This document shows positions 2,759-64,000 of a stretch of DNA of 64,000 nt, in pieces. Each line of letters begins with the position of its first letter. The first letter of the stretch is position 1. The stretch covers positions 11,257,001 through 11,321,000 of the forward strand of contig NC_083515.1 in the NCBI RefSeq assembly GCF_032362555.1, read 5' to 3'. Both the position numbers and the translations under genes were made by a program. The notes under the pieces were generated by a model, which worked only from the letters and a program-made list of their open reading frames with translations, was not told the DNA's origin and searched no databases. This stretch comes from Amyelois transitella. Its lineage: Eukaryota > Arthropoda > Insecta > Lepidoptera > Pyralidae.

Positions 2759-5700
2759 TGTTGGGATCGTTCTTGGAGCGGTCGTCGGTGGAGGTCCCGA
2801 ACTGGTCGGTCACCAGCTGCGCCAGACCTGCGCACACGCACACACCGTCACACACTGACACCGACGCACATTGCACAAACATGACGATACAGTGAGGGAA
2901 ACCATTTGAAGTGATAAAGTGTGTGTAACTTACAAAAGTTTGCAGTGTACACATTTTTTTGGATTATAGAACTACTTTTAATTATAATTTGAAGATGTAA
3001 TTCTATACTGTATTAAGTATAACGAATGCTAAGTAAGTCAACCAAAAAACAATTATAGTCAATTACGAGTAAGCAATGGATACCATTTATGCATAAATAA
3101 CATGTTCAAAAGCTCATGTCAACCATAAAACTAAAATATAGAGATAAAAAGTGAAGTTATAAATGACTAGCAATTGCGCAAGGCTCCCCTCACGTGAGAA
3201 TTATTCCTTAAGGTCTATTCTATCTGTGTACCAAATTTCATCGAAATCAGCGCGACTTTCTTCGTGTGTTTAAAGTGCGGCTCAATGTATTTATTGGAAA
3301 AATTTATATGTTGGCGCGGTGTATGATGTGAGAAACTTACTGTATATAGGTTGGGCGGGCGGCGGGCGGTAGTCGGGCGCCGGCAGCACCGGCAGCGCGC
3401 GCCACGCCGCCACTAGCGCCGGCTCCGTGCTGCCTCCCACCGGCCTGCGAGCGGGAATTAAAAGTAATTAATTACATTGTATTTAATTGAAGACAGACAG
3501 ACTTTTAAGTTCAAATCTATTGTTTTGAAGTACGGTAAATCAAATTGAATAAAACCAAAATATACTAAATTAAATTTACAAAACCGCTTGCCACTTAAAA
3601 TTTTGCTTTAATTGCTCCTATGGAGTTCATGATGTGCCCATTTCTATGCCAGTGACATTGTTCTAGTAAGAACAGAATCGTACAATATGATATGCAATGA
3701 ATAAACGGTCGTGCGCGTTGAGGAGCGCCAGCGCGGAGATGTACGTGTGTCCGTGTGTATGTGACCTGTAGACGAGCACGTGGCCCGTGTGCGAGGCCAC
3801 GGCGAGCAGCGCGCGGTCGTGCGCGTTGAGGAGCGCCAGCGCGGAGATGTACGTGTGTCCGTGTGTATGTGACCTGTAGACGAGCACGTGGCCCGTGTGC
3901 GAGGCCACGGCGAGCAGCGCGCGGTCGTGCGCGTTGAGGAGCGCCAGCGCGGAGATGTACGTGTGTCCGTGTGTATGTGACCTGTAGACGAGCACGTGGC
4001 CCGTGTGCGAGGCCACGGCGAGCAGCGCGCGGTCGTGCGCGTTGAGGAGCGCCAGCGCGGAGATGTACGTGTGTCCGTGTGTATGTGACCTGTAGACGAG
4101 CACGTGGCCCGTGTGCGAGGCCACGGCGAGCAGCGCGCGGTCGTGCGCGTTGAGGAGCGCCAGCGCGGAGATGTACGTGTGTCCGTGTGTATGTGACCTG
4201 TAGACGAGCACGTGGCCCGTGTGCGAGGCCACGGCGAGCAGCGCGCGGTCGTGCGCGTTGAGGAGCGCCAGCGCGGAGATGTACGTGTGTCCGTGTGTAT
4301 GTGACCTGTAGACGAGCACGTGGCCCGTGTGCGAGGCCACGGCGAGCAGCGCGCGGTCGTGCGCGTTGAGGAGCGCCAGCGCGGAGATGTACGTGTGTCC
4401 GTGTGTATGTGACCTGTAGACGAGCACGTGGCCCGTGTGCGAGGCCACGGCGAGCAGCGCGCGGTCGTGCGCGTTGAGGAGCGCCAGCGCGGAGATGTAC
4501 GTGTGTCCGTGTGTATGTGACCTGTAGACGAGCACGTGGCCCGTGTGCGAGGCCACGGCGAGCAGCGCGCGGTCGTGCGCGTTGAGGAGCGCCAGCGCGG
4601 AGATGTACGTGTGTCCGTGTGTATGTGACCTGTAGACGAGCACGTGGCCCGTGTGCGAGGCCACGGCGAGCAGCGCGCGGTCGTGCGCGTTGAGGAGCGC
4701 CAGCGCGGAGATGTACGTGTGTCCGTGTGTATGTGACCTGTAGACGAGCACGTGGCCCGTGTGCGAGGCCACGGCGAGCAGCGCGCGGTCGTGCGCGTTG
4801 AGGAGCGCCAGCGCGGAGATGTACGTGTGTCCGTGTGTATGTGACCTGTAGACGAGCACGTGGCCCGTGTGCGAGGCCACGGCGAGCAGCGCGCGGTCGT
4901 GCGCGTTGAGGAGCGCCAGCGCGGAGATGTACGTGTGTCCGTGTGTATGTGACCTGTAGACGAGCACGTGGCCCGTGTGCGAGGCCACGGCGAGCAGCGC
5001 GCGGTCGTGCGCGTTGAGGAGCGCCAGCGCGGAGATGTACGTGTGTCCGTGTGTATGTGACCTGTAGACGAGCACGTGGCCCGTGTGCGAGGCCACGGCG
5101 AGCAGCGCGCGGTCGTGCGCGTTGAGGAGCGCCAGCGCGGAGATGTACGTGTGTCCGTGTGTATGTGACCTGTAGACGAGCACGTGGCCCGTGTGCGAGG
5201 CCACGGCGAGCAGCGCGCGGTCGTGCGCGTTGAGGAGCGCCAGCGCGGAGATGTACGTGTGTCCGTGTGTATGTGACCTGTAGACGAGCACGTGGCCCGT
5301 GTGCGAGGCCACGGCGAGCAGCGCGCGGTCGTGCGCGTTGAGGAGCGCCAGCGCGGAGATGTACGTGTGTCCGTGTGTATGTGACCTGTAGACGAGCACG
5401 TGGCCCGTGTGCGAGGCCACGGCGAGCAGCGCGCGGTCGTGCGCGTTGAGGAGCGCCAGCGCGGAGATGTACGTGTGTCCGTGTGTATGTGACCTGTAGA
5501 CGAGCACGTGGCCCGTGTGCGAGGCCACGGCGAGCAGCGCGCGGTCGTGCGCGTTGAGGAGCGCCAGCGCGGAGATGTACGTGTGTCCGTGTGTATGTGA
5601 CCTGTAGACGAGCACGTGGCCCGTGTGCGAGGCCACGGCGAGCAGCGCGCGGTCGTGCGCGTTGAGGAGCGCCAGCGCGGAGATGTACGTGTGTCCGTGT

Positions 5701-8700
5701 GTATGTGACCTGTAGACGAGCACGTGGCCCGTGTGCGAGGCCACGGCGAGCAGCGCGCGGTCGTGCGCGTTGAGGAGCGCCAGCGCGGAGATGTACGTGT
5801 GTCCGTGTGTATGTGACCTGTAGACGAGCACGTGGCCCGTGTGCGAGGCCACGGCGAGCAGCGCGCGGTCGTGCGCGTTGAGGAGCGCCAGCGCGGAGAT
5901 GTACGTGTGTCCGTGTGTATGTGACCTGTAGACGAGCACGTGGCCCGTGTGCGAGGCCACGGCGAGCAGCGCGCGGTCGTGCGCGTTGAGGAGCGCCAGC
6001 GCGGAGATGTACGTGTGTCCGTGTGTATGTGACCTGTAGACGAGCACGTGGCCCGTGTGCGAGGCCACGGCGAGCAGCGCGCGGTCGTGCGCGTTGAGGA
6101 GCGCCAGCGCGGAGATGTACGTGTGTCCGTGTGTATGTGACCTGTAGACGAGCACGTGGCCCGTGTGCGAGGCCACGGCGAGCAGCGCGCGGTCGTGCGC
6201 GTTGAGGAGCGCCAGCGCGGAGATGTACGTGTGTCCGTGTGTATGTGACCTGTAGACGAGCACGTGGCCCGTGTGCGAGGCCACGGCGAGCAGCGCGCGG
6301 TCGTGCGCGTTGAGGAGCGCCAGCGCGGAGATGTACGTGTGTCCGTGTGTATGTGACCTGTAGACGAGCACGTGGCCCGTGTGCGAGGCCACGGCGAGCA
6401 GCGCGCGGTCGTGCGCGTTGAGGAGCGCCAGCGCGGAGATGTACGTGTGTCCGTGTGTATGTGACCTGTAGACGAGCACGTGGCCCGTGTGCGAGGCCAC
6501 GGCGAGCAGCGCGCGGTCGTGCGCGTTGAGGAGCGCCAGCGCGGAGATGTACGTGTGTCCGTGTGTATGTGACCTGTAGACGAGCACGTGGCCCGTGTGC
6601 GAGGCCACGGCGAGCAGCGCGCGGTCGTGCGCGTTGAGGAGCGCCAGCGCGGAGATGTACGTGTGTCCGTGTGTATGTGACCTGTAGACGAGCACGTGGC
6701 CCGTGTGCGAGGCCACGGCGAGCAGCGCGCGGTCGTGCGCGTTGAGGAGCGCCAGCGCGGAGATGTACGTGTGTCCGTGTGTATGTGACCTGTAGACGAG
6801 CACGTGGCCCGTGTGCGAGGCCACGGCGAGCAGCGCGCGGTCGTGCGCGTTGAGGAGCGCCAGCGCGGAGATGTACGTGTGTCCGTGTGTATGTGACCTG
6901 TAGACGAGCACGTGGCCCGTGTGCGAGGCCACGGCGAGCAGCGCGCGGTCGTGCGCGTTGAGGAGCGCCAGCGCGGAGATGTACGTGTGTCCGTGTGTAT
7001 GTGACCTGTAGACGAGCACGTGGCCCGTGTGCGAGGCCACGGCGAGCAGCGCGCGGTCGTGCGCGTTGAGGAGCGCCAGCGCGGAGATGTACGTGTGTCC
7101 GTGTGTATGTGACCTGTAGACGAGCACGTGGCCCGTGTGCGAGGCCACGGCGAGCAGCGCGCGGTCGTGCGCGTTGAGGAGCGCCAGCGCGGAGATGTAC
7201 GTGTGTCCGTGTGTATGTGACCTGTAGACGAGCACGTGGCCCGTGTGCGAGGCCACGGCGAGCAGCGCGCGGTCGTGCGCGTTGAGGAGCGCCAGCGCGG
7301 AGATGTACGTGTGTCCGTGTGTATGTGACCTGTAGACGAGCACGTGGCCCGTGTGCGAGGCCACGGCGAGCAGCGCGCGGTCGTGCGCGTTGAGGAGCGC
7401 CAGCGCGGAGATGTACGTGTGTCCGTGTGTATGTGACCTGTAGACGAGCACGTGGCCCGTGTGCGAGGCCACGGCGAGCAGCGCGCGGTCGTGCGCGTTG
7501 AGGAGCGCCAGCGCGGAGATGTACGTGTGTCCGTGTGTATGTGACCTGTAGACGAGCACGTGGCCCGTGTGCGAGGCCACGGCGAGCAGCGCGCGGTCGT
7601 GCGCGTTGAGGAGCGCCAGCGCGGAGATGTACGTGTGTCCGTGTGTATGTGACCTGTAGACGAGCACGTGGCCCGTGTGCGAGGCCACGGCGAGCAGCGC
7701 GCGGTCGTGCGCGTTGAGGAGCGCCAGCGCGGAGATGTACGTGTGTCCGTGTGTATGTGACCTGTAGACGAGCACGTGGCCCGTGTGCGAGGCCACGGCG
7801 AGCAGCGCGCGGTCGTGCGCGTTGAGGAGCGCCAGCGCGGAGATGTACGTGTGTCCGTGTGTATGTGACCTGTAGACGAGCACGTGGCCCGTGTGCGAGG
7901 CCACGGCGAGCAGCGCGCGGTCGTGCGCGTTGAGGAGCGCCAGCGCGGAGATGTACGTGTGTCCGTGTGTATGTGACCTGTAGACGAGCACGTGGCCCGT
8001 GTGCGAGGCCACGGCGAGCAGCGCGCGGTCGTGCGCGTTGAGGAGCGCCAGCGCGGAGATGTACGTGTGTCCGTGTGTATGTGACCTGTAGACGAGCACG
8101 TGGCCCGTGTGCGAGGCCACGGCGAGCAGCGCGCGGTCGTGCGCGTTGAGGAGCGCCAGCGCGGAGATGTACGTGTGTCCGTGTGTATGTGACCTGTAGA
8201 CGAGCACGTGGCCCGTGTGCGAGGCCACGGCGAGCAGCGCGCGGTCGTGCGCGTTGAGGAGCGCCAGCGCGGAGATGCGCCCGCGCGCCCGCGGCCAGGC
8301 GCCCACCATCAGCTTGGCCGCCGTGCCCCAGTCCCACACGCCGAAGTTGTCCTGATAACACACGCACAACACAATTCTAAATGGGATACCAGGTGTCGCT
8401 TAGTCATGTTAAAGTTAATAAATAACTTATTTATCTGTCGTTACATACGAGGGCGGCACTGAAAATTCGGGAATCAAGGAAGTGACACAAGATCACTATA
8501 AAAAAAGTTCTTTGTCCCTCAAGAGCAATAGTCGCAACGGCCGGTTTTGGAGACAAACGTTGCCACCATTTTTTTTTTTGCAATACTCCGTGAGCGAACA
8601 ATTTTTGTTGGCTTTAATTCATTATCGAACATTTAAACTCGTGCCTGTTTTTTGTTTCGGGTTCGTACGCATAAATCCAGGATTCGTCCCCTGATACGAT

Positions 8701-11700
8701 GTTGTATACAGCATTTGAGGATCCTGCGTGGAATCTTTCAAGAGTTCTGACGCACCAAGTAATGCGAACCACTTTTTGCTCTTCACGGAACGAATGCGGT
8801 ATCCATCGGGAAAACAACTTTTTTACACCTAACAGTTCATGCAAGATTATTTGTATTTGACTCATGCCATTGTCGAAAGTTGCTTGAATTTCGCGGTATG
8901 TCACATGTCGATCTTCCTCAATCAGCCTACGCACAGCATCAAAGTTTTCTTGGGTGACTGCAGTTTTTGGACGACGGGGATCATCACCGAGTTTGACACG
9001 TCCACACAATTCAGCAAACCAGCGATAAATTGTGCTTTTGAATGGGGCTTCATCACCAAATGCAAAAAGCATCCGATCAACACACTCTAAAGTTCTAAAG
9101 TCATAATAAATCATCGCTCTTGAATTTTCTCGAGTCAATTCTATTTTCTCAAAGACTAAACAAGTTTGACAAGACCTCGTGAAAAGACCGCGAATCTATT
9201 TTTAAATAAATAAATGGTATTCGATTTTTGAAACCAAGGAGTTTTCAAGTAAATTTTTTTAATATGACAGGAACAGTGAAATATTCCATTCTTACAACTT
9301 TCAGTGCAGCCCTCGTAGATTTAAGATCAGCATTTGTAAATTTACGGATGGTGAAAATACTTCAGTGTAAAGCGGTAGTAAATATAATAGGGATGATGAC
9401 AAGGTCTTAAAACAATATTAATTATTCTATTAGGATAGAGTACACGTTATTAAATAGGTATGTTACGTTCTTAGAATTTTGACGCTCTATATGTTTTATA
9501 TACTATCAAAGTACGATGGGAAAGTCCATTTAAAAAAATCTAAATTATTTGAAAATAACTATGCCAGGAGTGAATAAACAAAAATATGGAATACCTTTTA
9601 TTAGGACTGTTTATGTACTGTCTTTGATAAATGGTATTTTACGTGGAACTGTATTAATAAAACAATTAAAACTTTACTTTTCCTATACTTATATTTTACT
9701 GTATTCAATTTCCACAAATATATACATAGCATTTATCTTGTACTTTTTTAATTATTAAAATACAATCAGATGGTAAAATTTGCTCTTGAATTCGTCTGAC
9801 GATCGTCACTTTTGGACTCGTCCAAATGATGTTTTATGTTACTTCGTATATCTCAGCTAGTTTATTGATGCCATTATTTGACCAATGTTTTAGTTGTTTT
9901 GAAACTAAATTCACATCAAAACAAAAAAAAATTGTCATCATGCCTATTATACTTTAGTTATGTTGACGTCAATAAGCGATGTATTTGAAAAAAAAAATTT
10001 TTATTTTATTGTTAAGTGTTCCTCAAAAAACGTCAGCCAACAAGACGGCAACATAGTTCATTATAACTAACGAGCTAAATAAGTTACCTTGGAAGCTACG
10101 GTGAGGTGCTGGTCGTAGGGGTGGAACAGCACCACGGCGGGCGGCAGCGCGCTGCGCGAGTGGAAGGCCTGGCTGTCCAGGCGCGGCACCCGCGCGCGCA
10201 GCAGGGCTGCTAACAGTCACCAACTTCGAATACATACTGCTTACACGTATAAAGACGGATGGAGTTCACTATACAGCAAAATGAAGCACCAATAGTATGT
10301 TACACGCCTCACGCACACACTCTCACCAATAGTGGCCCATTACGGCATAGTTGCGTCTTAGATTATCTCACGAAATGGCAAGTTTTCTGTCACTCACACA
10401 TCCATACCACGCTGCAATAACGATGCTTCACTTTTTTTCAAGACACACTCCGTCCGCCTTTTTTTCTACGTCTATAACCTACTGTTTCTTTGTAGTTTGT
10501 GTAAGTGGCAGAACTGATACACTTGATGTAGTATGCATACGGGACTTAATGACAATAAATAATAACATAAGCAGAAGGGACCCTCTCTCGGATAACTGGA
10601 AGGTTGGTAGAGCCATGGGTTGATGGAGGGAAACGCAAAAATCATGTTTTATTATTTCAAACAAATCAGTGGTCAAATCAGGTGAACGTGGCCATTCAGT
10701 CTTTTCGTGACTATTGGCTCTGTCTACCCCGTAAGGGATATAGACGTGACTATATGTATGTATGTAAATCAGCGGTCATTATGAACAGCTCTCACACTTG
10801 CACAGTTCACGCGAACTGTACTCTCTTAGTCTGCCACCCTGACCCTCACTATGACAAGCTGACCCTGGCTGACCTCTGGCCTCGGCGCGCAGACTGCTGT
10901 TCCGGCAGTATCGCCACACTCGCTCGTGGTGGGCCCTACTCTCGCAGTCCGGCGACCCCTGACCCTCACTATGACAAGCTGACCCTGGCTGACCTCTGGC
11001 CTCGGCGCGCAGACTGCTGTTCCGGCAGTATCGCCACACTCGCTCGTGGTGGGCCCTACTCTCGCAGTCTGCCCCCCTGACCCCCACTATGACAAGCTGA
11101 CCCTGGCTGACCTCTGGCCTCGGCGCGCAGACTGCTGTTCCGGCAGTATCGCCACACTCGCTCGTGGTGGGCCCTACTCTCGCAGTCTGCCCCCCTGACC
11201 CCCACTATGACAAGCTGACCCTGGCTGACCTCTGGCCTCGGCGCGCAGACTGCTGTTCCGGCAGTATCGCCACACTCGCTCGTGGTGGGCCCTACTCTCG
11301 CAGTCTGCCCCCCTGACCCCCACTATGACAAGCTGACCCTGGCTGACCTCTGGCCTCGGCGCGCAGACTGCTGTTCCGGCAGTATCGCCACACTCGCTCG
11401 TGGTGGGCCCTACTCTCGCAGTCCGGCGACCCCTGACCCTCGGCCCTGGAGAACATGCTGGACGCCCACTCCACGAAGTTCGTGCTGACAATAGGCTTCT
11501 TCGGTTCCTTTGGTTGACCTGCAAACATAACATTATTATAATTTGCATTATGTTACTAGAAGGGTATTTACAAGATTCATACACACTCTTCCACTCCACA
11601 TTCAGACACATTGCCTATATTTTTTCTTCTTGTTTACTTTCTCTCACCAGAACGACCTCGATTTGATTGAGGTACATTTCGTTAGGTATCGGCAAGCGAT

Positions 11701-14700
11701 TTGTTTTTATTTTCAGGAAGTTCATTGAGTTGATAAAATGTGGGGATTATGTGGGGATACGGGACTGAAATAAGACGTGAATAAGAAAGGTTGTACAAAT
11801 TCAGTAAACTAATAATGATAGTCTGATATAATGATGTTTGGTTGACGATGAGATGAACTCACTAGAGTTTGAAGAGGTGGAGTCCCGTTCTCGACTTCCA
11901 TCGCGCTCGGCGGCCGGGACAGAGTCCTCCGAGATTGTGTGGGACAAGCTTGCTTTGACGCGGCGATTACCTGTTAAACAGTATTATATCATAAGAACTG
12001 ATGAGCGTCGAATGACAATGTATAGCTGAATTTTTGGATTCCCTGAAAGTCCCAAATCTATCCTTGAATAATAGCAGGTATTATCAATTTGACCATCAAA
12101 GAGTCTCATGCCCGGAGTACAAAAACGATGGTGAATCGGAGGTTACTTCAAGAAGAAGAGTTACTTCTTGTAGCGACATCGTCGTACATACAATCAGCAC
12201 ATAACCGGATAAGGCACACTATAAGATAAAGTTTAGAGATTAAGTTAGATAGCAAAACGCACGTCCTTTATTAGTATATAAGCAACCGATATATGTAAAA
12301 TAGACACACTTAAAACCATTACGCGTTTCACTACATCTCCTTGCCGGACCAACGGCAAACTTCTCAACACTTTGTTAATCTTGTTTATGCAAATGAAGCG
12401 GCGGCAGGGCCGAGCTGTTCCCGCTGCTGCTAATGTTGTTACAGTGTGTACGTACTCATGGCGGGCAGCGTGCGCGTGTGCTCGGAGAGCGGGCAGGCGC
12501 GCGTGTTGGGGGACGGCGGCAGGGACGAGCTGTTCCCGCTGCTGCTAATGTTGTTACAGTGTGTACGTACTCATGGCGGGCAGCGTGCGCGTGTGCTCGG
12601 AGAGCGGGCAGGCGCGCGTGTTGGGGGACGGCGGCAGGGCCGAGCTGTTCCCGCTGCTGCTAATGTTGTTACAGTGTGTACGTACTCATGGCGGGCAGCG
12701 TGCGCGTGTGCTCGGAGAGCGGGCAGGCGCGCGTGTTGGGGGACGGCGGCAGGGACGAGCTGTTCCCGCTGCTGCTAATGTTGTTACAGTGTGTACGTAC
12801 TCATGGCGGGCAGCGTGCGCGTGTGCTCGGAGAGCGGGCAGGCGCGCGTGTTGGGGGACGGCGGCAGGGACGAGCTGTTCCCGCTGCTGCTAATGTTGTT
12901 ACAGTGTGTACGTACTCATGGCGGGCAGCGTGCGCGTGTGCTCGGAGAGCGGGCAGGCGCGCGTGTTGGGGGACGGCGGCAGGGACGAGCTGTTCCCGCT
13001 GCTGCTAATGTTGTTACAGTGTGTACGTACTCATGGCGGGCAGCGTGCGCGTGTGCTCGGAGAGCGGGCAGGCGCGCGTGTTGGGGGACGGCGGCAGGGA
13101 CGAGCTGTTCCCGCTGCTGCCGCTCAGCGTTCGCGCGGTCACCTCGTTCTCGCGGCTCACGTTGTCCACCTGTGCACAAAATAGGTGATCAAAATCAATT
13201 GTTTGTAAAACAAAATCCCCGACGGGGTTCAGACTACAATTCAAAGAAATGTTTTGACGTTAAGCCACCTTTACTGTCTTTTTCCAATCATTCGTCGACA
13301 GAATGGAAACCTACTTCGACGAATCGTTGAAAGACTTCCTATCGTCCATTCTCCCAATGACGAATAGTGATGTGGTAGAGCAATCGACCATCGCACAACA
13401 GTTTCACACTCATTTTCTGTGACCTAGATGCTTCGTTAACACAAAAAGACTGGGACTACGAAATGTGTATGTAGTGTCAAGTATACCTGGTTGGAGATGT
13501 GGTTGATGATGTCGTTGGCCATCTGCGAGACCTGCGGGTGCGGCTCGCGCGCCATCGCGCACAGCGTGTGCCACAGCTTCATGTACACCGAGCCGAAACC
13601 TGATTCACCAAAAACATATATCAATATGATAACATTTATGATATAGCACGTAATCATCATCAATGTCATTTTAAATCAAATTGTTTGTGCACTGACTTTG
13701 ATAAATGGTATTTTACGTGGAACTCATATATAAAAAGGAGCTATATTATACATGGAAAGTGTGGAGGGAAAGGTCGGGGTGGGAAGGCCTAGACGAATGT
13801 ATCTTGATCAAATTAAGGACGACCTGGCAAAGGGTCAGGTCAAGAGTGCCCGAAACCGCCAAACTTGCATGAAGAGAGTTATGAATGTGGATAAAGCAAA
13901 GGAAGTAAGATCGTGGCAAGTGGGAAGAGGTAGTCTTTGCCTACCCCTCTAGAGTATAATTAGAGTATAGTAGAGTGTAGTAGCGTATAATAGAGAGCGG
14001 TAGAGTGTAGTAGCGTATAATAGAGAGTGGTAGAGTGTAGTAGCGTGTAGTAGAGTGTAGTGGAGTGCAGTAGAGTGTAGCAGAGAGATGGAGCTCACCG
14101 ATGGCGGGCAGCTGCAGCGGGCGCTGGCGGAGCGGCGCGGCGCGCGCGGCGCCGGGCTGCAGCGCGTCCTGCCCCACGGCCACCGGCTGCGAGCCGCCGT
14201 TGCCGGAACCGGAACCCACCACGCTACAAACATACACCTTACTGTTGGCCGTCATCTACTTTTGACACGATACCAAAAAAAGACATGCAGCGATCAAAAA
14301 ATTGTCAAAGAATACGACGCTAAGTTATTGCAAAAACCCAAGGTCTAATTTTCTATTTCGAGCATAGAAAATTGGACCTTGGGTTTTTGCAATAACTTAG
14401 CGTTAGGTGCTGTGAAACGACATTTTTTTGAAAAAAATTATAAATAGCGTAATATTGATGCAAATTAACATTATATATTAAAGTAAAGGCAAACATATCT
14501 TTGCTATAATACTCTCAGCATATAAAGCTAAAAAAAGCTAAAATTTGCCGCTACGTCTGAAACATTCAATACTCTTAACATACAGCATAAAAAGCTAAAA
14601 TTTGCAGCTACGTCTGAAACATTCTTAAAATGCACATCACTCCCTGATACCCTGTAAACCGCGAATCAAGCAATTCCTTATGAACCGTGATGAATAAAGC

Positions 14701-48018: not shown

Positions 48019-48040
48019 AATTCTCTCAAAATATGTGCAA

Positions 48041-48051: not shown

Positions 48052-48056
48052 TATAA

Positions 48057-48426
48057 TGAATTATCAATATGCCTGTTTATTTAGAAATAAAGACGTAATT
48101 GCGTTTCTGTGAACAAAAGATTTATTTATTTACAAAAGTTTTTTAACACTTTGATAATGACATAAGCTTATAAACTAAACATTTACTCACCTGTGAACAA
48201 AAGAAACAACATTTAAAGCCCTTATTTCGGGTCTATTTTAATAATTTCACAGGCAAGATTCTTACAATAAAATATCTGTTACACTACCTACACAAAATAT
48301 TTCTAACCTCAATAATCACACTTGACATCTCCTTGACGTTTAAGCTGCCAGCGACCTCAACTAATTAACGCGGCAAAATTTAAATTGCATACATTACATA
48401 AAGAATACCTATAAGTTTTCTTTACA
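48057..48426 (-). repeat. 5' LTR of the Ty3/gypsy element
   Basis: 370 bp, same as 43358-43727. Contains AATAAA-like and T-rich segments. Transcript start unknown; the self-priming model would put it near 48214. Confidence 0.93.
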
Positions 48427-48431
48427 TATAA

Positions 48432-49216: not shown

Positions 49217-52200
49217 TCAGGCGTAGTCGTTGAAGTCGTCGATGGCGATGCGCTGCGCCTGGTCGGGCGAGCTGTAGCTCATGGCGTGCGGGCGCGCCAC
49301 GGCCGCCTCGCGCTCCGCCTCCAGGCGCGCGCGCAGCCGCTTGATGAGGCGCAGGCGCTCCAGCGCGTTGGACGCGAACGGCGGCGCGTTCAGCCGCAGG
49401 GATTGCGCCACCTGCACGACACCGCCTTTCAGTATATTGGGCTCTCTTGTACGAATATGTTCTAACCAATCTGAAGTTGTTTCAACAGTACCTCACTGAT
49501 TCAAAGACTTTCAATGTCAATTTGGTCGAATATATTTTGTACCCTTCCTGCTTCCAAGGTATAAGGCTTATAAGGTTTTTTTAAATTTTAAGTCTAAATA
49601 TTGACCTTCAATCATTTCTCAGTCACGAGAAACCTATTACATAATGTGCCACCGCGTCGGACACGTGGTAGGTGTGGAGGTGAGGCAGGAGGTATACCTG
49701 TGCTGCGAGCGAGCAGTGGAGCGCCAGCTGGCGGGCGAGCCTGGCGGCCACCGCGTCGGACACGTGGTAGGTGTGGAGGTGAGGCAGGAGGTATACCTGT
49801 GCTGCGAGCGAGCAGTGGAGCGCCAGCTGGCGGGCGAGCCTGGCGGCCACCGCGTCGGACACGTGGTAGGTGTGGAGGTGAGGCAGGAGGTATACCTGTG
49901 CTGCGAGCGAGCAGTGGAGCGCCAGCTGGCGGGCGAGCCTGGCGGCCACCGCGTCGGACACGTGGTAGGTGTGGAGGTGAGGCAGGAGGTATACCTGTGC
50001 TGCGAGCGAGCAGTGGAGCGCCAGCTGGCGGGCGAGCCTGGCGGCCACCGCGTCGGACACGTGGTAGGTGTGGAGGTGAGGCAGGAACTCGCGCACGCGC
50101 GCCTCCTTGCTGAGGACCACCACGCGGTTCATGGCGTGCTCCAGCGGCTCCACCACCACCACGCACAAGTTCGCCTGGCCCTAGGAAGTGCATTAACTCG
50201 GATGAAAAACATCATATTTTATTTTAATTTAAATTTCACTACGAAACTCAGGGTCCTATCATATACATGTATACAGGTAAGGATATTCTGACAAAGTGAA
50301 TCAAATCATGAAATCAACCCGATTCAGAATTCAAATTTCAAAATCTTCCAGAAAATATCACTACATAGTATAAAACAAAGTCGCTATTTTAGTCTGTTTG
50401 TCTGTATGCTTAAATCTTTAAAATTACGCAACGGATTTTGATGCGGTTTTTTGTAACAGGTAGAGTGATTCAAGAGGAAGGTTTTTATGTATAATAACAT
50501 TTATAATTTTGCACCCGTGCGAAGCCGGGGCGGGTCGCTAGTATTGTTTAAATTGCAAGGATAATAACTAAAAAAGTCACTTTAATATCAAGGTTACAAG
50601 GCAGAAGATCAGATTGGTCTAGCTTCCAGTTGCGTAGGATCGATTCTCTCATGATACAACAAGTTACTCTTCTCGCTATCATACCTACGCGCGTTAAACT
50701 ATAAACACAAACCTTGATGGTCTGGATGTCGAACTCCTCGCCGGAGTCGTTGTACACGATGGACACGAGATCGTTGCCGATGTACTTCCGCTTCTCGTTG
50801 CAGTTGGGGTCCTTGGGCGACGTGGGCATCAGCGTCGCCACGTGGAACAGCATCTGCATGACGTCGTCGCGCCACACGTAGGTGTGCGAGCCGTCGCGGC
50901 CGCCGCGCTCCATGGTGAGGAACAGGTCGGGCTCCGGCGCGCCCAGCGCCAGCGGCACCACGGCGCCCAGCGCCGCCACCAGCGCCGCGTAGCGCACCGA
51001 GCCGTGCGCGTTGCGCAGGATGGCCGTCTCGTTGTCGTGCTGGCCGCGCGCCACGTACAGCACGCCCACCTTGTACGTGTCCACGGGCGGCACCAGGTCC
51101 AGGTTCTTGATGGTGCGCTCGTGCTGCACGCCCAGCACGCGCAGCGGCCGCTCCAGCAGCGGGTGCGCGCGTGGCGGCGGCTCGCCGGGCACGGCGCCCG
51201 TCAGCGGCGTGGCCTTCAGGTTGTGGTACAGCTGCAGGAAGAAGAAGGACGGCGTCAGCCCCGCGCCGCCCAAGCCCAGCCCCGCGTCCGCGCCGCCCGC
51301 CGCGCCCGCCGCCGCGCCGCGCGACAGCTTCTCCCTGCAACGGACGGACTCGTTACAGGCCGGCTCCGACGGCGCGCCCGCCAGCCCGCCAGCTCACTCA
51401 CCGGTGCCGCCGCGTGGGGCTCATCACGGAGATGGTGTGCGACCGCCTGGAGCGCGACAGCGGCGGGAGATCGTCGCCGTCGCCCGCCGCTGCAGCGCTG
51501 CCGCCCGCCGCCGCGTTCGGAGCTGCAGCGCTGGATGTGCTCGCCGCAGCGCTGGATGCACCCGCAGTAGCGCTGGATACGCCCGCTGCAGCGCTGGAGG
51601 CGGGCGATCGCGGCGGCTTTGAACTTGAGGGCACTGTGCTGTCACTCGCCGTCTGTGCCGACCAGCGATATAAAGACATTAAGAATACACGTCACATATT
51701 TATCAATACTTAATAATAATTATACAAGTAATACATGTCAAATAAAGACTTCAAATGGTAGAAAGTTTATGTATCTTAGATCTTAAAATCCAAACCTATT
51801 CTATGGCCGTCATTCTTAAACTATATTTTTACTTCCCTGTCAGCTAATTTTATTGCTTTCTCAATTTAAATCTGAGAAATAAATAGTACGTACTTTTTGT
51901 AATTGATGGTGGGTTTGTGTCGATGATTGCGTCGGCTCCGCACCTATAACGATATATATTTAATCGAGTTTTATACTTTGGATTTATCTGCCACATACCT
52001 AGAAGAAACCTATCGTCATTAAATATTACACGTAAGATAATGATGTCAATGAAATTTGTTTGACCCAGGGTACTGCCTTGCGCCTTTCGTAAGTTCTCGC
52101 ATATTAAGACATAGATGTTACAGAGCTCCTTAATAAATTTCAAATGCTCTGTGCTGCTATTAGAGTAAAGAGTTTTCAATACCACAGTATCCCATAAAAC

Positions 52201-55200: not shown

Positions 55201-58200
55201 TTGGCGCTCCAGCACGGGCACGCGCCCGCCGCCGCTAGCGCCGCCGCCCGCGACACCGGCTCCTCCGTGTCCTGGGAACACAATAATATAAGAAGATCGA
55301 GTATTATCCGACAGGTGACAGATGTTTGGTATGAACCCTTCGAGTTCTCACTAGATTCGACCGTCACCCACGTTGTCTCTTGATGGCTGCTATGTACGTG
55401 AAGACCACGAATAGTCTCCCCGTTGATGGCGTGGTTTCAGCCCCTTCGTACACGAGGCTACAAAAATCTTCGTCGGTCAGGTCGAAGGTGTCTCTGGCGA
55501 TCGGGTAGACCAATGGTTAGCAGCTTAATTTCATCGCGATGCAGCTTATCTGGACTCCTTCGGGAACCTGATAACTGGATCCATTGTTTATAGGGTTCAA
55601 GATTTGGGTTTCGGACCCCTCGCTGCGTCTCCCCGATCGCCAGAGCCGCTACAGCCTGGCCGACGACGACCTCTTTGCAACCACCAGTTCAACCCGGAGC
55701 TGCTTTCGTTCTGCCGGCGCACGAGAAATACGGCTTACGATACATGATCTATTTCATAACCTATTATTATATTTCATAGTGAGACTCCTTGGTTTCATTT
55801 AAACTTGAGTACGCTATAATACGCGAGGATGATATATAGACGACATTATCGAAATTGTTTTGAATAAAAAAATTAAGCTAAACCAAAGTAAGTATAACAA
55901 CAACGTACAATTTCTTTGCACCTCTTCTCGAACTGCTGCGCGAACTTCGCGAACGTTTCCGCGACCGAGTCGCTCTGCTTGTTCTCCGATGAGTTTTGTC
56001 TACAAATATCAAACAAATGCAATTACATATCCACTTTGTACTTCATTTTTGCAAAAAGTATTCACTAGAAAAACAACTATTGAAAAATAAATATTACTAG
56101 GTGAAGTTTTGACGAACGCTTCCTTGTAGCAAGACGTTTGTGTGAAAGTAGTGAATGAAATGAAATGAAACAGGTATATAAATGACATGCATGAATCAAC
56201 GCTATTTTTAACACCAAGCAAAGATGGAATAGCTCTCCAAATATGTTTCAGCTCATTTTAGTCTAAAGCTTAATATGCGAGTCCTTTAAATTTTATTGGT
56301 ACAATAAGTAAACTGCGTAACAGTAAAAACATCGTTTCGCAGAACTTTAAGGCGTTAATGTCAAAAAACGTAATGTTTTTTTTTTTTGGTTAATGGTTAA
56401 TCAATATGGACCGCGAGCTAGGAACTGATTCGAGTGAGGTATTCCACCAATCCAAACAGGAAGCGGTGCATGCACAAGTGGTGGGGGTGGGCACCTGGCC
56501 ACGGGTCCGTCCGCCAGCGCGCCGTCGCTGGCCGCCAGCGAGCCCGGCGCGGACGCGTCCACCGAGCGCGAGTGCTGCAGCGAGTGCTTGCTGTAGCTGC
56601 GGTCACACTCCCCACGTGTTACATCACACTGACACTGCATTTTTGCTCACTTACGCGCTTTACATTAACGCTTTTAATGACTAATATGTACCTAACTAAT
56701 GATTTTTGTAAAGAAAATATAAAGAATTTATTATATCATTCGTATGTTATGATTTACAATGCGTTAAAACTCGTATTAAACAAAAATGCAGCGTTATAAA
56801 AAGCAAGACATCTCCCGCTTAAGCTGGTCCCCTGTTAATAGAGCGGCGAAGCGATGTCAGTTAGAAGTCAGTGTTCTGCACGCTATCACACAGCATATGA
56901 CAACAAGAATCACACGGAAAACAGTTATTTCTTACATGCAATTTCAACAATATTTTTTAGTCTTTTTTCACAAATTTACTACGTTTATTATCACTTGGAA
57001 GCGATAATTATACTTAACACTAGTTATATTTTAAATCTATCTCAATCCACGATATTAAGCCAGACACGTTACTTTCAGATGATAGAAAAGCCAAGAGAAG
57101 AATTTTCTTTATAACCACAGCAACATTAAAGTGTGTGAAAATGCCGATAAGCGGCTTTTAAATTATATTAGGCCATTTTGCAATATAAACTCAATCGCGT
57201 AACACACGCCAAACAGTGACAACGTTAATGCAAGTACTCACCGCTTGACTTCCGGCGGGTTCCCCACTTGCAGCTGGTTGTTCCCGGAGCTCTCCGTCTC
57301 GCTCGACTGCGCCTGTAGTCGGTGTATAGGTACAATAAGCCGTACATCCCACTGCTGCCCCGTAATCAGTGACGAGTGGAGGGAGGGGATCAAATTTAGA
57401 TGCTCCGCAGAGATCGACAATGTGCATCCCCCTGCTGCACCCAAAAACCAAGTAAAACGGGGGGCAGCAGGGGGATCACATTTGTATGCTCCGCAGTGAC
57501 CGACAATGTGCATCCCCCTGCTGTACCCAAAAACCAAGTAAAACGGGGGGCAGCAGGGGGATCACATTTGTATGCTCCGCAGTGACCGACAATGTGCATC
57601 CCCCTGCTGTACCCAAAAACCAAGTAAAACGGGGGGCAGCAGGGGGATCACATTTGTATGCTCCGCAGAGATCGACAATGTGCATCCCCCTGCTGCACCC
57701 AAAAACCAAGTAAAACGGGGGGCAGCAGGGGGATCACATTTGTATGCTCCGCAGTGACCGACAATGTGCATCCCCCTGCTGTACCCAAAAACCAAGTAAA
57801 ACGGGGGGCAGCAGGGGGATCACATTTGTATGCTCCGCAGAGATCGACAATGTGCATCCCCCTGCTGCACCCAAAAACCAAGTAAAACGGGGGGCAGCAG
57901 GGGGATCACATTTGTATGCTCCGCAGTGATCGACAATGTGCATCCCCCTGCTGCACCCAAAAACCAAGTAAAACGGAGAGCAGCAGGGGGATCACATTAA
58001 TTTAATTAGATTAAAAAAATATTATGAGGTGATGTGGTAACCTGAGCGCTGTCGAAGCTGTCCTGCTGGTCGCGGCACAGAGCGGCGCAGCGCTCGCAGG
58101 GCCCGGCTTGCGGCGAGTTCTGCAAGCAGCCCGCCGTCGTGATCGTCACCACCTTGTGCCCCACTACCCACGTCATCGACTGACCACCTGTCAGATGATA

Positions 58201-61200
58201 CATACATACATTATTATATGATAAAAAAAACGTGTTATGTATGCTATACAGGACGTGTAATTACTTGCCTTGCTCTCGAAAGAAGCGACATCATAGATGA
58301 ATTTTTGGCTTTATACGTTAGAAGGACGCAACTGGGATTAAGGCTAGGAGGATGGTGATGGAAAGTATTGTCTCCGTCAGCTCCACGTGGCAGGCTGACA
58401 CCACACACTGCTGGAGAGAGTACCTGCGAAGAGAAAGTCTGCGATGTCGAGCCGCTGCGGCTTGCAGCTGACGCGGGAGGAGGTGTACCGCGTCAGCAGG
58501 TCCACGCAGGTCTCCGTCAGCTCCACGTGGAAGGCGGCTGAAGCTCCGCCCGATACTGACAGTGGCGCCCGGGGCACCGCTCGCGAGCCCTGCAATACAC
58601 ACGTTACTGTCAAGGCGAGATACCCAGGATGCAGCCAAGTTCTGGGTACCAACTATAATATCTATACATATACTATACAGAAATACGGAATTCATGAGTT
58701 ATAATTATAAAATACATAATAATGCACTGACCAGACTTGAACTACGTTGTCGGTTGGAAGAATCTTCGTTCGCGGCTTGTCTTAGACTCTTGTTGGACCT
58801 GTTCTGCAGCTGCTCCTCGAACGGAACTATCACGTAGTTGTGCAGACCCTGGACAACGCGAAACATTATTAGAATACGGATAAATTGTGATGGCATCATG
58901 GTAGACACGTGTGCTAGATGTATTTGCGGCGTTCCAAAAGTAAAACAGCCGGGAGTGTGGGGCGGTGCGGCCGTGACTCACGTGGATGATGAACTGCACG
59001 AAGTTGCGGCGGTAGCTGAGGCGGCACTTGAGGAACCAGGCGGCGATCACGTGGTGCGCCAGCGACACCACGTAGTGGTTGTAGCGCGACGGGTTGGTGT
59101 ACGGCAGCAGGATCGCGAACACCGACATGTACTGGTCCTCCACGAACGACGCGAACACCGCGGGCAGGCGCGTCAGTGCTGGGGACACACGGTTGCGGGA
59201 TGTTATGTATCGGTGTGACCTCACATCGAGGCGAATGATAGACAGAACACTCACTGGACAAGAATTCGAGCATCGGGCTCGCGATCGCCTTCGTGTCCGA
59301 AATCTTGGAGAGATCCAGCAGCACCTCGGGCAGCATCTTGATCATGGTGTCGCGCGTCTCCAGCGTGAACACCGTCAGCGCGTAGATGTAGGGCTGCGCG
59401 TCCAGGAAGGGCTGCGCGGCGCGCAGGCGCATGCCGAACTTGAGCAGGCAGCGCACCACGCGCTTCTGCGTGGGCGGCTCCAGGTACTTGTGGTAGGGCG
59501 CCAGCGCCGCCAGCGCGGGCAGCGCGGCGCCGTGCACCTCGGACGTGAGCGGGCGGCGCTGCTGCGGCGCCGCGCTGCGCTCCGCCACCAGCGCGCACAG
59601 CGTGCCGGCCAGCAGGTCCACGTCGGGCGCGCGCCGGCCCACGGCGGGCGCGCGCGCGTGCAGCAGCGCGGGCAGCGCGCGCAGCACGCCGCACTGCACG
59701 GGCCAGTCGCGCTCCGCCGTCAGCGCCAGCCCCAGCGCGCGCGCGCAGCGGCTGGCGGGCAGCAGCGCGGCGCCGGGCGCGGGCTCGCGCGCGGCGGGCG
59801 GCTGTCCGCGCCGCGCGGCGGGCTCCACCAGCAGCGCGGCCGCGCACACGGGCCGCAGCCGCGCCGCCGCCGCGCCCCACACCGGCGCGCCGCTGCCGTC
59901 CCAGCACACGCCCACGCAGCACAGCGCGTTGGCGCGCAGCGTGTACAGCAGCTCGAAGATCTTCACGCGGATGCTGGGGTGGTGCTGCAGCATGGCCGGC
60001 TTCTTGTAGTGCTGCTCCAGGTGGTCGAGCAGCACGAGCAGGCAGCGCGCGGCGTGCGAGGCGGGGCTGCTGTACATCTTGTCGTAGAACAGCTGGATGA
60101 GGCCGGCGGCCGCCAGGTGGATGTCGGCCGCCTCGGCCTCGCCGGCCGGGACCGGCACGTCCAGGACGAATATGTCGAACGGCCTGTACCGGAGACAAAC
60201 AGTTTGCATTCTATCACGATCTACACTGAAACATGTTTAAGAGGCCAGTGAGTCACCTGTTGAGTATCTTCTCGAGCAAGTCGATGAGATCGGTGACGGC
60301 GTCGCTGGTGCTCTGCCGCGCCAGCTCCACCAGCGCGCTGGCCGCCGCCGCCCGCAGCGCGCAGTCCGGGTCGGTGGCACACGCGCTCAGCACCGGGAGA
60401 CCCACCAGCTCCAGTAATTCCTCGCCGAACAGCGTCCTAAGAGACAAATGTTATGTTACATGAGAGAACCCCAGAATCCTTCATCCGCTTCGGAGGGACT
60501 ATCTTTCAGAAGTGTCACGTCGACTACAGTTCACAGTGAGCGAGCGGTAATAAACTTCGGCAAGATGTCGAGAGTACCGGCGTCCTCTTCGGGGTTTGGG
60601 CGTTGTTGGTGACGCACATGGCGGTAACGTTTGCTGCGACAACAAAAAACTTTAGACGGTTCCTAGCCCCTCAATCACCCATGAGTTGCATGGTAACAGA
60701 GGTCGAGAATACTATGCCAGACCAGGGTTGGAATTCGAGAAGGTGTATAGTAATGCGTTGGCCTCAGCATCGAGACTATGTAACTGTAGTGTGTGCGTGG
60801 GGTCGGCACTGGTCCACCAGCTGAAGCGCGCAGGTCTACCTGTGCCTGGTGACGAAGCTGGCTATCTGCTGCAGCGTGTGCGTGCGCACGCGCCGGCGCG
60901 GCTCGTGGCGGATGTAGCGCTCGGCCAGCGCCAGCGCGGACGCCACCCAGTCCCGCTCCGCCATCGCCAGCCGGCCCGCCAGCAGCGACACCAGGCGGAT
61001 CGTGGACGCCTGCCGGGCACAACATGTTTCGTTTAAATAATGACTCATGATCGCTTGTCAAATTTGTACCTACAAAAAATTTCGTCACACACACACACAC
61101 AGCGTCACCTCTGGCCGCTCGTGGCCGCAGTAGTCCAGCAGCGCCAGCAGCGAGTCCTCGTTGCCGCAGTACCGGAGACGAGCTCGCTATCACACACACA

Positions 61201-64000
61201 CACACAGCGTCACCTCTGGCCGCTCGTGGCCGCAGTAGTCCAGCAGCGCCAGCAGCGAGTCCTCGTTGCCGCAGTGCCGGAGACGAGCTCGCTATCACAC
61301 ACACACACACAGCGTCACCTCTGGCCGCTCGTGGCCGCAGTAGTCCAGCAGCGCCAGCAGCGAGTCCTCGTTGCCGCAGTACTGGCCCGCGTCGTGCAGC
61401 TGCTCCAGCGACGAGATCAGCGCGTGCAGACGCGAGTGCAGCAGCTCGCTTCGAGGGTCCTGGCTCGCTGCCGGTAAAACATCACATCGTTAAACTTTTT
61501 TGGTATCAGAATTTAGATTTGAACAGACGCACAGTTAAGTCGAGTCATGTAATTTAGAGTGTCAATTAGTTATGTATCCGGGCAACCTGCAGCCTCCCGG
61601 TCCTGGTCGACGACGGCGCGCACGGCGGCCAGCACGAGGTCCCAGGCCGGCTGCTGCAGCTCGGCCGCCGCGCGCGACACCAGGCTCTGCAGCGCCAGCG
61701 TCACCTCGTACGTCACCACCGACTGCTTGCGCTCCACCGCCTGGAAACAAACATTCACTACACGGTCTTGACGACGTCGCGGAGCACATCAATCGTAAAT
61801 TCCTAAATATATCAATCCCGGAAAATCAGTTTTCTCATAGAAATAATTTATCTTTAATTAATAATAGACCTTGAGCAGCGCGGGCAGCACGCTGTGGAGC
61901 GCCACCTGCAGGCCGGGCACGCGGCTCGGCCCCCACAGCGCGCGGTGCACGCAGAACACGGCGCCGCGCTGCAGCCCCGCGTTGGCCTCCTCGGCCAGCA
62001 GCCGCGCCAGCTCGGCCAGCGCCGCGTGCCCCGCGTCCGCGCCCAGCACGATGCGCATGAGCTTCCAGGCGGGCTGGCAGTAGCGCTCCAGGTTGACGCA
62101 GCGGCACAGCGCGGCCACGAGCGCGCGCAGCCCGTCGCGCGGCAGCATGGAGTAGCCCACCACGGCCTCCAGCAGCGCCAGCGACACCAGCACCACGCCC
62201 GGCTCCTCCGCGAACACCGCCAGCTCGCACGCGTGGCTGGCGGACATCAAACGTCTCGCATCAAAACGCCCCGCAAAACTGACCTTCACTTCTCATTCTA
62301 CTCTACATATGTTCTACCATCTTGTGGGAGACGATATTGAAGTTAGCAGTAAGCTAATGAATAAACGGCCCCAGTACCCGAACTGTAGAAGAACTGGCAA
62401 AGATGAGAGGGACAGGGAGAGACATACTAACAATAATAAGAACAACCAAACAAAATAGATGTAGATATTATTAAAAAAATTATTTTTTCATGTATGCAGT
62501 GCTGTTTAAAAGTATTTCTACAATGAAACTGATAAAGATCAGTTGTCAAAATCAGAGTAGCTAACTGCCTGTCTTTTTCTAAGCTTTCTTCTTTCCAAGA
62601 AAGTTATTGCAAACAATTTATTCTCGACAGCTTACACAAACAGGGGTTCACTAATCACAGAATAATATAAGTCTACCGAACACTCACCTCACAAAAGCGT
62701 TGACAATATCTTCGTCCAAGTATGTGGCGTTGAATTTGACGACGTTAATGACGAGCTGCAGGAACTCCTCCGTCAGCGCGGGGTCCTGCACCTGCGGCAG
62801 CCACTCCAGCAGGAACGCGCCGATCTGGAAGGATATTGATTCGTTAAAACACCGCTACAGGCGCTACAGGCGGCGTAAAGGAAAGTATGAGTAGGAAGAG
62901 CGTGACCAGTGAGATGGCAAGTGACAGAAACAATTGGAAAAAACTAACATACTGTGCCGACCCCACGTAGAAAGTGGGATAACGTAACGACAAAGAAGAA
63001 GTATTGGCTAACTGAACAAAGGTCTGTCACTGCTTTGAAACTTTCGTGTTGTATCATACTTTTTAAAAATATTTACTAACAATTCAATAATGAAAGTCAA
63101 GCGTTGGTGGTCGTATTGGTAAGGTGCCCGGTTAAAATTCGTGTTGCGCAGAAAGGCACAGGTTCGAATTCCACCCCCCATGTATCAATAACAGATTTCG
63201 AAATAAATTAGTTTGAATACTAACCGATGCTTGATACATCCAGTCTCCTGAATCATTTGCCTTAATTATTATGCATTAGCTATAACGGTTGTATAACCAT
63301 GATCGATCCAATACAGGTTAGGTTCCCCTGCAAATGTTGCGGTGGTCAGACAGGAGTCACTTCATGTTAAAACCTGATTCACCCAATCCAGGATGGTGCT
63401 ATGGTCTATCCATGGCACACCCTGGTCTTCTCTCTAAAGGAATGCTGATGCAACTAAGACTAATGCCAGGAGGAGGAATAATTTCAATAAAAAAAGACAA
63501 CCCCCTGTATTACCCCTCTAGGGAAGGGGATTTTTGTATACCAATTTTTAAGCACATTTGAGAAAACAGCATTCAAATCGGAACAATAGTATTCGCTTCA
63601 TGGATGTACTGCCATGCAAACAGACATTCTAAAAATCCTTATTACTAGAACCAGAAAAACATCTAGCTTGAGCTTGGCGCAGGAACCTCGTAAGGATTTG
63701 TAGGTTTCAAATTTCAACAAAATAGTTAGAGGCGTTTTTATAACAGGGTACAAATATTTGTATATGTATATACATATTTCTCATATAATAGTATATAGAT
63801 CCTCTACATTCATTTGTTAACAATGCCTATCAAGTACAGACATAAGTCAGTTATTTTATGTATGGATATGATCACTTACTTGTTCTTCGTAACACTTGAT
63901 ATTCTTCCCTGTGTTGGTCAGAGAGTGCAGCAGCTTGAACCGGAGGTGCTCGTCCTCGGGCGGGTGGTTGGGATGCGATTCTCGCAGGTAGCGCAGGAAC
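49217..64000 (-). CDS. gig: TSC2/tuberin (gigas), N-terminus off right edge
   Basis: GTPase-activating subunit of the TSC complex; it turns off Rheb and so mTORC1. Exons (phases agree): 64000-63880 partial, 62824-62688, 62236-61870, 61740-61587, 61467-61319, 61009-60840, 60436-60257, 60183-59255, 59178-58982, 58848-58732, 58589-58424, 58187-58042, 57312-57242, 56596-56495, 55999-55909, 55271-55134, 54714-54622, 54290-54214, 53900-53823, 53398-53308, 52911-52790, 52538-52372, 51633-51402, 51334-50713, 50180-49995, 49411-49217. About 1,700 codons. N-terminal HEAT solenoid ([37 protein letters not shown]), a tuberin domain ([15 protein letters not shown]), Ser-rich linkers, and a C-terminal Rap-GAP domain with the Asn-thumb segment [17 protein letters not shown]. 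It ends in the family tail ([10 protein letters not shown] ... IDDFNDYA). The T-rich acceptor of 51633 is weak. Two exons end in tandem arrays. Confidence 0.95.
49650..50095 (-). repeat. 99-bp tandem array (~4.5 copies) straddling a TSC2 Rap-GAP exon donor
   Basis: ccgcgtcggacacgtgg recurs at about 49652, 49751, 49850, 49949 and 50048, 99 bp apart, with near-perfect identity. Minus strand: each unit is the last ~90 bases of exon 50180-49995 ([30 protein letters not shown]), the donor CAG|GTATAC, and ~9 intron bases. 99 bp is 33 codons and the frame stays open through the array. Four GTATAC donors lie at 49989, 49890, 49791 and 49692. Each unit holds one CACGTG. Confidence 0.96.
50363..50543 (+). 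repeat. Dispersed repeat family C, half copy in a TSC2 intron
   Basis: Nearly identical to the right half of 24724-25074 (cgcaacggattttgatgcgg; gtagagtgattcaagaggaa; gcccgtgcgaagccgggg type end). Ends at gggtcgctagt. Confidence 0.75.
51529..51605 (-). repeat. 24-bp coding repeat (4 copies) in a TSC2 linker exon
   Basis: gcagcgctggat and variants recur every 24 bases, coding an 8-residue Ser/Ala motif ([18 protein letters not shown]) in the disordered linker before the Rap-GAP domain. In frame, so it alters only linker length. Confidence 0.75.
51850..52332 (-). pseudogene. Non-LTR reverse transcriptase remnant in a TSC2 intron
   Basis: The frame has [20 protein letters not shown], resembling the RT block FxDxxKAFD, and [14 protein letters not shown], resembling the GxPQGSxLGPxLF block. 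Catalytic YxDD and most of the domain are absent. A decayed LINE fragment. Confidence 0.6.
53000..53190 (-). repeat. Dispersed repeat family E in a TSC2 intron
   Basis: Reverse complement of 37110-37282: gggacatttcaatatcac, cacaacattggttgacgtc and gtcagtgcagaagaa are shared. Confidence 0.7.
53505..53760 (-). repeat. tRNA-derived SINE family D
   Basis: On the minus strand it begins gcgcaaaaaggcacagttcg, a B-box-like segment followed by aaacccacctcggccat, then the body (ccgatgctcttacggtgag; atgatcgatccaatacgg; ctgctaagattgcggaggtc). Matches the body of 63103-63430. Confidence 0.68.
54425..54550 (-). repeat. SINE family A fragment in a TSC2 intron
   Basis: ccagtcaacagtct ... tgatagaattgaggttcaa ... 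ctagcccatcgcctaaaag ... gtttataagtct, middle part of the family. Confidence 0.68.
54777..54829. repeat. Inverted repeat, ~22-bp imperfect arms
   Basis: accattcttacagcgtgtgct pairs with agcacacgctataagtatgg+t around tctgattgtaa; two or three mismatches. A second short palindrome, gcgaacgtt-gttc-aacgttcgc, lies at 54893-54914. Both are in the TSC2 intron between exons at 55134 and 54714 and may be the end of a foldback element. Confidence 0.75.
57378..57998. repeat. 86-bp tandem array (7 copies) in a TSC2 intron
   Basis: tgtgcatccccctgct recurs at 57421, 57507, 57593, 57679, 57765, 57851 and 57937. Each unit contains atccccctgctg and, ~35 bases on, its reverse complement cagcagggggat, so every unit can form a 12-bp hairpin. 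The run ggggggcagcaggggg is G-rich enough for quadruplex formation. Two linked variants (gaccgac with tgtac; gatcgac with tgcac) alternate. No exon sequence is included, unlike the other arrays. Confidence 0.95.
61087..61420 (-). repeat. 105-bp tandem array (3 copies) straddling a TSC2 HEAT-exon donor
   Basis: agcgtcacctctggccgctc recurs at 61101, 61206 and 61311, 105 bp apart. Minus strand: each unit holds the 3' end of exon 61467-61319 ([20 protein letters not shown]), the donor CAGAG|GTGACG, and intron bases including a (GT)n run. Although 105 is a multiple of three, the exon frame meets TGA soon after the donor, so read-through would truncate. Confidence 0.94.
62872..63000 (+). repeat. 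LINE 3'-end fragment in a TSC2 intron
   Basis: aaaggaaagtatgagtagga ... ctgtgccgaccccacgtag ... gataacg ... gaagaagaag, shared with 38855-38960. Resembles the 3' end of RTE-type LINEs with a short simple tail. Confidence 0.55.
63103..63430 (+). repeat. tRNA-derived SINE family D, near full length
   Basis: A head with an A-box-like stretch (cgtattggtaaggtgcccgg) and a B-box match (ggttcgaattcc, about 63160-63172) about 35 bases apart, then the body shared with 53505-53760 (tgatcgatccaatac; ggtggtcagacaggagtc; acctgattcacccaatccag). Lies in the first TSC2 intron of the window. The remainder of that intron (63431-63879) shows nothing further. Confidence 0.72.

Follow-up and report, generated by a model that had tools for sequence, protein, structure and literature searches.

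Coding VNTRs, such as mucin repeats, are built of tandem units derived from exons. Human VNTRs with a GC content above 60% and units longer than 15 bp are enriched 21-fold within 5 Mb of chromosome ends (PMC7608644). Tandem genomic duplication of exon segments bearing AGGT is a route of intron gain (PMC3443670), and at a double-strand break either CST/Pol alpha fill-in or polymerase theta can give rise to small tandem duplications (PMC8355091). Exon minisatellites that straddle splice donors were not found as a class in the literature searched, most subscription journals lying outside its reach, and the first-pass annotation of the present DNA had likewise known of no such described class.

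The locus considered here is a stretch of 64,000 nucleotides (the window), C11:11257001-11321000, in the 327-Mb, 33-contig assembly of Amyelois transitella. Contig C11 terminates at 11,365,000 in (TTAGG)n, which places the window 44-108 kb from the chromosome end. Positions given below without a contig name are window coordinates.

Gene models and the five donor arrays

The top protein match of the Raptor query is Amyelois transitella Raptor (P0001, 1301 aa), which maps exactly, end to end, onto C11, and that of the TSC2 query is P0121 (1810 aa). Exons were placed by spliced mapping of these two predicted proteins with a script that permitted only GT or GC with AG and demanded the correct residue at split codons. 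The mapping comprises 26 Raptor and 28 TSC2 exons (54 in total), both genes lying on the minus strand, with GT-AG at 52 of 52 junctions. The window holds 47 of the 52 donors and 48 exons, the remainder being in the flanks; this agrees with the 'about 48' traced exons of the first-pass annotation.

TRF, run over the window, detects five arrays with units of 99-118 bp, 96-100% matches and a unit GC content of 0.65-0.70. Each starts within a coding exon and repeats the end of that exon, the GT donor and the first bases of the intron. All five arrays previously placed at donors are thus recovered by TRF and spliced mapping, at Raptor exons 20, 18 and 16 and TSC2 exons 27 and 7, all on the minus strand. 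Array 1 (3706..8277, a 108-bp unit × 42.3) is located at the donor of Raptor exon 20 (8194..8351; CTACAG/gtcacata, last exon base 8194), and its unit consists of 84 nt of the exon end and, on the donor side, 24 nt of intron. Array 2 (10819..11439, 118 bp × 5.2) is found at the donor of Raptor exon 18 (11348..11518; CCAGAG/gtcagcca, last exon base 11348); its exact run has 76 nt of exon and 42 nt of intron, an underestimate of the exon part because the array contains unit variants. Array 3 (12399..13120, 115 bp × 6.3) occupies the donor of Raptor exon 16 (13031..13169; CCATGA/gtacgtac, last exon base 13031), with 90 nt of exon and 25 nt of intron by exact runs. The 99-bp unit of array 4 (49648..50086, × 4.4) is made up of 92 nt of TSC2 exon 27 (49995..50180; GCACAG/gtatacct, last exon base 49995) and 7 nt of intron. 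Array 5 (61085..61382, 105 bp × 2.8) begins in TSC2 exon 7 (61319..61467; CCAGAG/gtgacgct, last exon base 61319), and its unit has 62 nt of the exon end with the donor and about 43 nt of intron that include a TG run.

The first donor is used in all five gene models, and P0001 and P0121 contain one copy of each exon tail and no array-derived residues. According to these predicted models, the array copies are intron sequence. The acceptor of every array-bearing intron (5/5 by mapping) falls outside the array.

Placement of the arrays and their surroundings

Across Raptor and TSC2, an array lies at 5 of 52 donors and at 0 of 52 acceptors (TRF and mapping), which bears out the earlier statement that none spans an acceptor. 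In an edge scan, local alignment of each exon edge (up to 200 nt) with the neighbouring intron (up to 600 nt) places copies on the donor side at 6/52 and on the acceptor side at 0/52. The sixth donor belongs to TSC2 exon 13, where 26 nt of the exon (58510-58535) recur on the minus strand, 96% identical, at 58370..58395, 140 bp further on in the next intron, as an incipient donor-side copy. The alignment scan reveals no whole-exon or acceptor duplication in either gene. Other BLAST neighbours of exons within the 208-kb region were dropped: those of Raptor exons 10 and 25 are flank words that recur widely, that of Raptor exon 14 is the 10/30-bp array described below, and those of TSC2 exons 10 and 25 lie within the exon.

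Other arrays in the window provide a contrast. An 86-bp × 7.1 array (57385..57998) lies entirely within a TSC2 intron, which it almost fills, and the 10/30-bp array (13950..14087) begins 11 nt past the donor of Raptor exon 14, whose last exon base is 14099. A 21-bp array (× 3.7, 80%) lies inside TSC2 exon 25 at 51525-51602, so the earlier remark that no internal exon is hit holds for the five long-unit arrays, all at donors, but not for this short-unit one. The unit lengths of off-donor arrays are 48, 70, 86, 104 and 114 bp; they include a 48-bp × 4.0 array in the left flank, and those of 70, 114 and 104 bp, found elsewhere, are AT-rich. The narrow range of unit lengths pointed out before, 99-118 bp at donors, therefore stands as a description, but it overlaps the off-donor arrays and is not donor-specific.

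Donor placement extends beyond the window, the 91-kb left flank containing two more arrays on predicted donors; both donors are exon-finder predictions made without a mapped protein. One array, C11:11218160-11218573 (142 bp × 2.9), lies near exons matching GH85 (endo-beta-N-acetylglucosaminidase), and its further copies were also given an acceptor-like site by the exon finder. The other is C11:11182022-11183879 (93 bp × 20).

Placement was evaluated, in tests that are all post hoc, against a null in which the five unit lengths were slid over both genes with the arrays collapsed. The probability that five of five fall at a donor is 2e-5 under random placement, 2e-4 to 9e-4 when a unit GC content of at least 0.55-0.64 is required, and 0.015-0.022 when placements inside exons are ruled out as well. 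A one-sided, GC-conditioned comparison of donors with acceptors only has a p of 0.04 at 5:0 and of about 0.011 at 7:0, the latter count combining the five window arrays with the two left-flank arrays on predicted donors. Most of the surprise is therefore gone once a GC-rich substrate is assumed and coding duplications are taken to be purged; the preference for donors over acceptors remains. Extreme as the excess is against random placement, the contention that the pattern is hard to explain by random slippage is too strong at the value of about 0.02 that follows GC conditioning and exon-internal exclusion. The exon tails of the five arrays have a GC content of 0.69-0.74 versus a median of 0.66 for the others (p 0.12).

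The neighbourhood contains several other elements. A 20-bp satellite with TTAGG-like words, GGCGGGGTTAGGTTAGTAGC (about 400 copies, 100% matches), lies outside the window at C11:11346161-11354156 (89161-97156 in window coordinates); from there the contig end is about 11 kb away. Two long ORFs (1050 and 391 aa) on the minus strand at 43751-48060, beside TSC2, are presumably those of an LTR retroelement, and a 193-aa ORF on the minus strand at 8614-9195, beside array 1 in a Raptor intron, resembles a mariner-type transposase. A family A DNA polymerase (Pfam DNA_pol_A) is indicated by predicted exons on C11 about 18-22 kb to the left of the window start. Raptor and TSC2 matches fall on contigs of the same listed length in several species, Plodia interpunctella, Mythimna loreyi, Helicoverpa zea, Battus philenor and others, which suggests that the linkage has long been kept across Lepidoptera.

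Tandem donor motifs elsewhere in the genome

A 92-kb sample from outside the C11 end, a large part of it close to chromosome ends, contains 36 predicted exons whose GC content is at least 0.6; none of the 36 has a donor array. Weak alignment matches in the sample (three donor-side and one acceptor-side, scores 13-14.5) were taken as noise, as were the similar weak matches of another edge scan and one between two neighbouring predicted exons (15). Twenty kinase-exon loci that form part of the sample, in which the exon finder recognised only 7 exons, contain one array with a unit of at least 15 bp, an AT-rich 27-bp repeat (L028).

A donor pattern of three AGGTRAG words 85-115 nt apart was compared with the same pattern reversed. 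It gives 236 + 83 = 319 matches versus 37 + 311 = 348 for the control and, with an added D, 115 + 75 = 190 versus 33 + 298 = 331, so that neither version has an excess of raw matches over the reversed control; the raw counts of both patterns are dominated by a few arrays. The donor word and its reversal occur equally often, at 167 and 160 per Mb of the sequence examined. At the level of arrays on C1-C13, among the matches listed, the added-D motif yields 7 multi-match long-period arrays versus 3 for the reversed motif (p 0.34), or 10 versus 4 with single matches included (p 0.18). An entry at C11:11306678 was removed from the donor-motif set, being array 4 on the antisense strand.

Eight tandem-donor places among the matches listed, from C1 to C5:2.63 Mb, were read, and five of them (C2:5345462, C3:10898048, C3:13033161, C4:1503794 and C4:12848306) look donor-straddling: in each, the start of an intron leads into a GC-rich open frame. 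Of the other three, C4:1575538 and C5:2630845 are short-period and C1:4043308 is a single match in AT-rich sequence. The five donor-like places have coding scores of 11-25 bits; since the score discriminates poorly, the short-period C4:1575538 also reaching 15, these distant places are only putatively coding. Five peptides of 20-22 residues from the five distant arrays have no match in Pfam, and one that was compared with the PDB has none there. FG-GAP matches occur on the same strand as the C4:1503794 array, about 70 kb downstream of it; they would fit an integrin alpha gene, in line with the resemblance of the peptide, but prove nothing. The C5:2630845 place is a large 56/59-bp minisatellite that runs to at least 2635247, with a unit beginning AGGTGAGCATCTG and no coding signal by score.

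Across the whole genome, the acceptor word TTTYCAG matches 40 times, at 28 places. These include one clear multi-match long-period array (C21:1907653), a doubtful one (C15:2513047, which also has a 33-bp offset) and three short-period places; the rest are single matches. The donor motif has at least 13 multi-match long-period arrays, 11 of them from the version with the added D and 2 more from the plain one, although TTTYCAG is the commoner word, a contrast that is confounded by base composition and in which single matches are unsorted. A strong intron-side consensus and an AG exon end rarely coincide at the 52 Raptor and TSC2 donors, and since AGGTRAG is present at only 1 of the 52, no genome-wide extrapolation is drawn from the motif counts. 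Confinement of such arrays to chromosome ends was ruled out, tandem-donor arrays being found well inside chromosomes.

Origin of the arrays and relation to known systems

The placement of these arrays is unusual, and the most economical account is that they are ordinary GC-rich minisatellites filtered by splicing, of which the donor-straddling copies survive; a probability of about 0.55 is assigned to it. They would have arisen when stretches of about 93-142 bp of GC-rich exon DNA were duplicated in tandem. Repair of a break or a stalled fork would copy an exon tail, sometimes only tens of bases of it, to a place shortly downstream, and slippage or unequal exchange between the resulting direct repeats would multiply the unit. 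With the most upstream donor used, as the gene models predict, the added copies would be intronic and the protein unchanged. Exon-internal duplications would alter the protein and be lost; in the transcript of an acceptor-spanning one the wrong acceptor would come first, and such duplications would probably be lost more often. Donor-straddling arrays would be the survivors and, once intronic, free to grow.

This account is favoured by the use of the first donor in all five gene models with acceptors outside the arrays, by the edge-scan counts, by the two further arrays on predicted donors in the left flank, and by the fall of the donor excess to p ~0.02 on GC conditioning and exon-internal exclusion. 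It is also favoured by the similar unit lengths found off donors, by the GC-richer exon tails (in the same direction, though at p 0.12) and by the nearness of the TTAGG telomere, human GC-rich VNTRs being enriched towards chromosome ends (PMC7608644). Several arrays end mid-unit, with terminal partial units of 36/108, 43/99, 86/105 and 97/142. These ends, together with the one-plus-fraction-copy state at TSC2 exon 13, are what a direct-repeat precursor would leave; later trimming would also fit the mid-unit ends, two histories that look alike in one genome, whereas plain two-copy duplication with unequal exchange would keep whole units. Junction microhomology, as read from the printed junctions, is 0-2 nt.

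Three observations weigh against parts of the same account. A splicing filter alone does not predict the 7:0 asymmetry between donors and acceptors; we argue that an acceptor penalty lies behind it, and the asymmetry would be explicable without a hotspot if the first transcribed donor is the right one and the first acceptor of a duplicated pair the wrong one. The acceptor-like calls in the C11:11218160 array mean that its unit may act as a whole cryptic exon. The subtelomeric part is weakened by the lack of donor arrays in the 92 kb sampled elsewhere and by the tandem-donor arrays inside chromosomes.

An unlikely alternative mechanism makes donors themselves mutational hotspots, at which transcription or splicing at the 5′ splice site would cause breaks or fork stalls and repair would duplicate about 100 bp; polymerase pausing, U1 binding and the exon-to-intron GC step are the proposed triggers. 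It is equally doubtful that 5′ splice sites are duplication hotspots in the moth generally, with co-transcriptional events at donors seeding, time and again, tandem duplications of about 100 bp that would recurrently make new intron from exon ends genome-wide. A hotspot would account for the seven long-unit exon-touching arrays at the C11 end, all on donors and none on acceptors, for the 6/52 versus 0/52 of the edge scan, for the five of eight places read among the matches listed and for the few arrays of TTTYCAG; however, the p of 0.015-0.022 under the strictest null, raw motif matches not above the reversed control, non-significant array-level counts among the matches listed and the array-free GC-rich exons elsewhere all speak against it. 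R-loops over GC-rich exon ends, suggested by the first-pass annotation as a cause, are disfavoured by composition: the seven arrays have coding-strand GC skews of both signs (-0.23, +0.23, -0.27, -0.31, +0.19, -0.05 and +0.14), four of them negative, where a G-rich non-template strand would be expected, and none of the seven has a G4 motif. Chance combined with selection by the reader, that is, a few ordinary minisatellites fallen on donors in one GC-rich locus, is quite improbable. The non-donor arrays of the same window, the p of only 0.04 for 5:0, the array-free exons sampled elsewhere and the motif counts, not significantly above the reversed control, are in its favour, and the two adjoining donor arrays and the five places read elsewhere, among the matches listed, are against it.

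An assembly or polishing artefact that added copies is still less probable. The full copies of array 1 (42 of 42) and array 4 (4 of 4) are identical, as it would predict, but those of arrays 2, 3 and 5 and of both left-flank arrays differ, and the arrays are bordered on both sides by non-repeated flanks in a contig that reaches the telomere. The idea least to be credited is selection for extra donors, raised earlier as a possible cause, which would secure the splicing of weak donors or produce isoforms lengthened by repeat units. In arrays 1 and 4 none of the three coding-strand frames has a stop and the unit is divisible by three, so that later donors could give in-frame additions there; in arrays 2 and 3 the unit is not divisible by three and stops interrupt every frame, in array 5 they interrupt two of the three, and unit sequences differ between the genes. 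The seven array donors score like the other 47 of both genes (p 0.66), and compensation for weak donors was dropped for this reason.

Were the arrays a general class of survivors, splice-site layout would decide which tandem duplications persist, and what a duplicated donor costs in fitness, compared with a duplicated acceptor, could be measured directly from long-read genomes. Were donors true hotspots, splicing or transcription would shape germline structural mutation. Either way, such arrays would conceal variation in intron length within important genes, here Raptor and TSC2 of the TOR pathway, and would be apt to mislead gene annotation.

The arrays share with coding VNTRs their exon-derived tandem units and differ from them in that the copies are absent from the predicted proteins, P0001 and P0121 carrying one copy only. 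Their highly similar head-to-tail units of 99-118 bp are those of minisatellites. Like GC-rich subtelomeric minisatellites and VNTRs (PMC7608644), they have long GC-rich tandem units near a chromosome end and within genes, although tandem-donor arrays are also chromosome-internal; unlike the human repeats, their unit is an exon end, a donor and an intron start, and the abstract of the human study makes no mention of donors. Duplications formed by break fill-in or polymerase theta (PMC8355091) could supply the first duplication, and the junctions in the moth have the short microhomology given above; the moth arrays are set apart by their many copies, often ending mid-unit. The likeness to AGGT-mediated intron gain (PMC3443670) is that exon sequence is tandemly duplicated beside splice signals and the extra copies are spliced out. 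In that process, two copies supply the donor and the acceptor; in the moth there are many copies and no new acceptor, the acceptors lying outside all five arrays.
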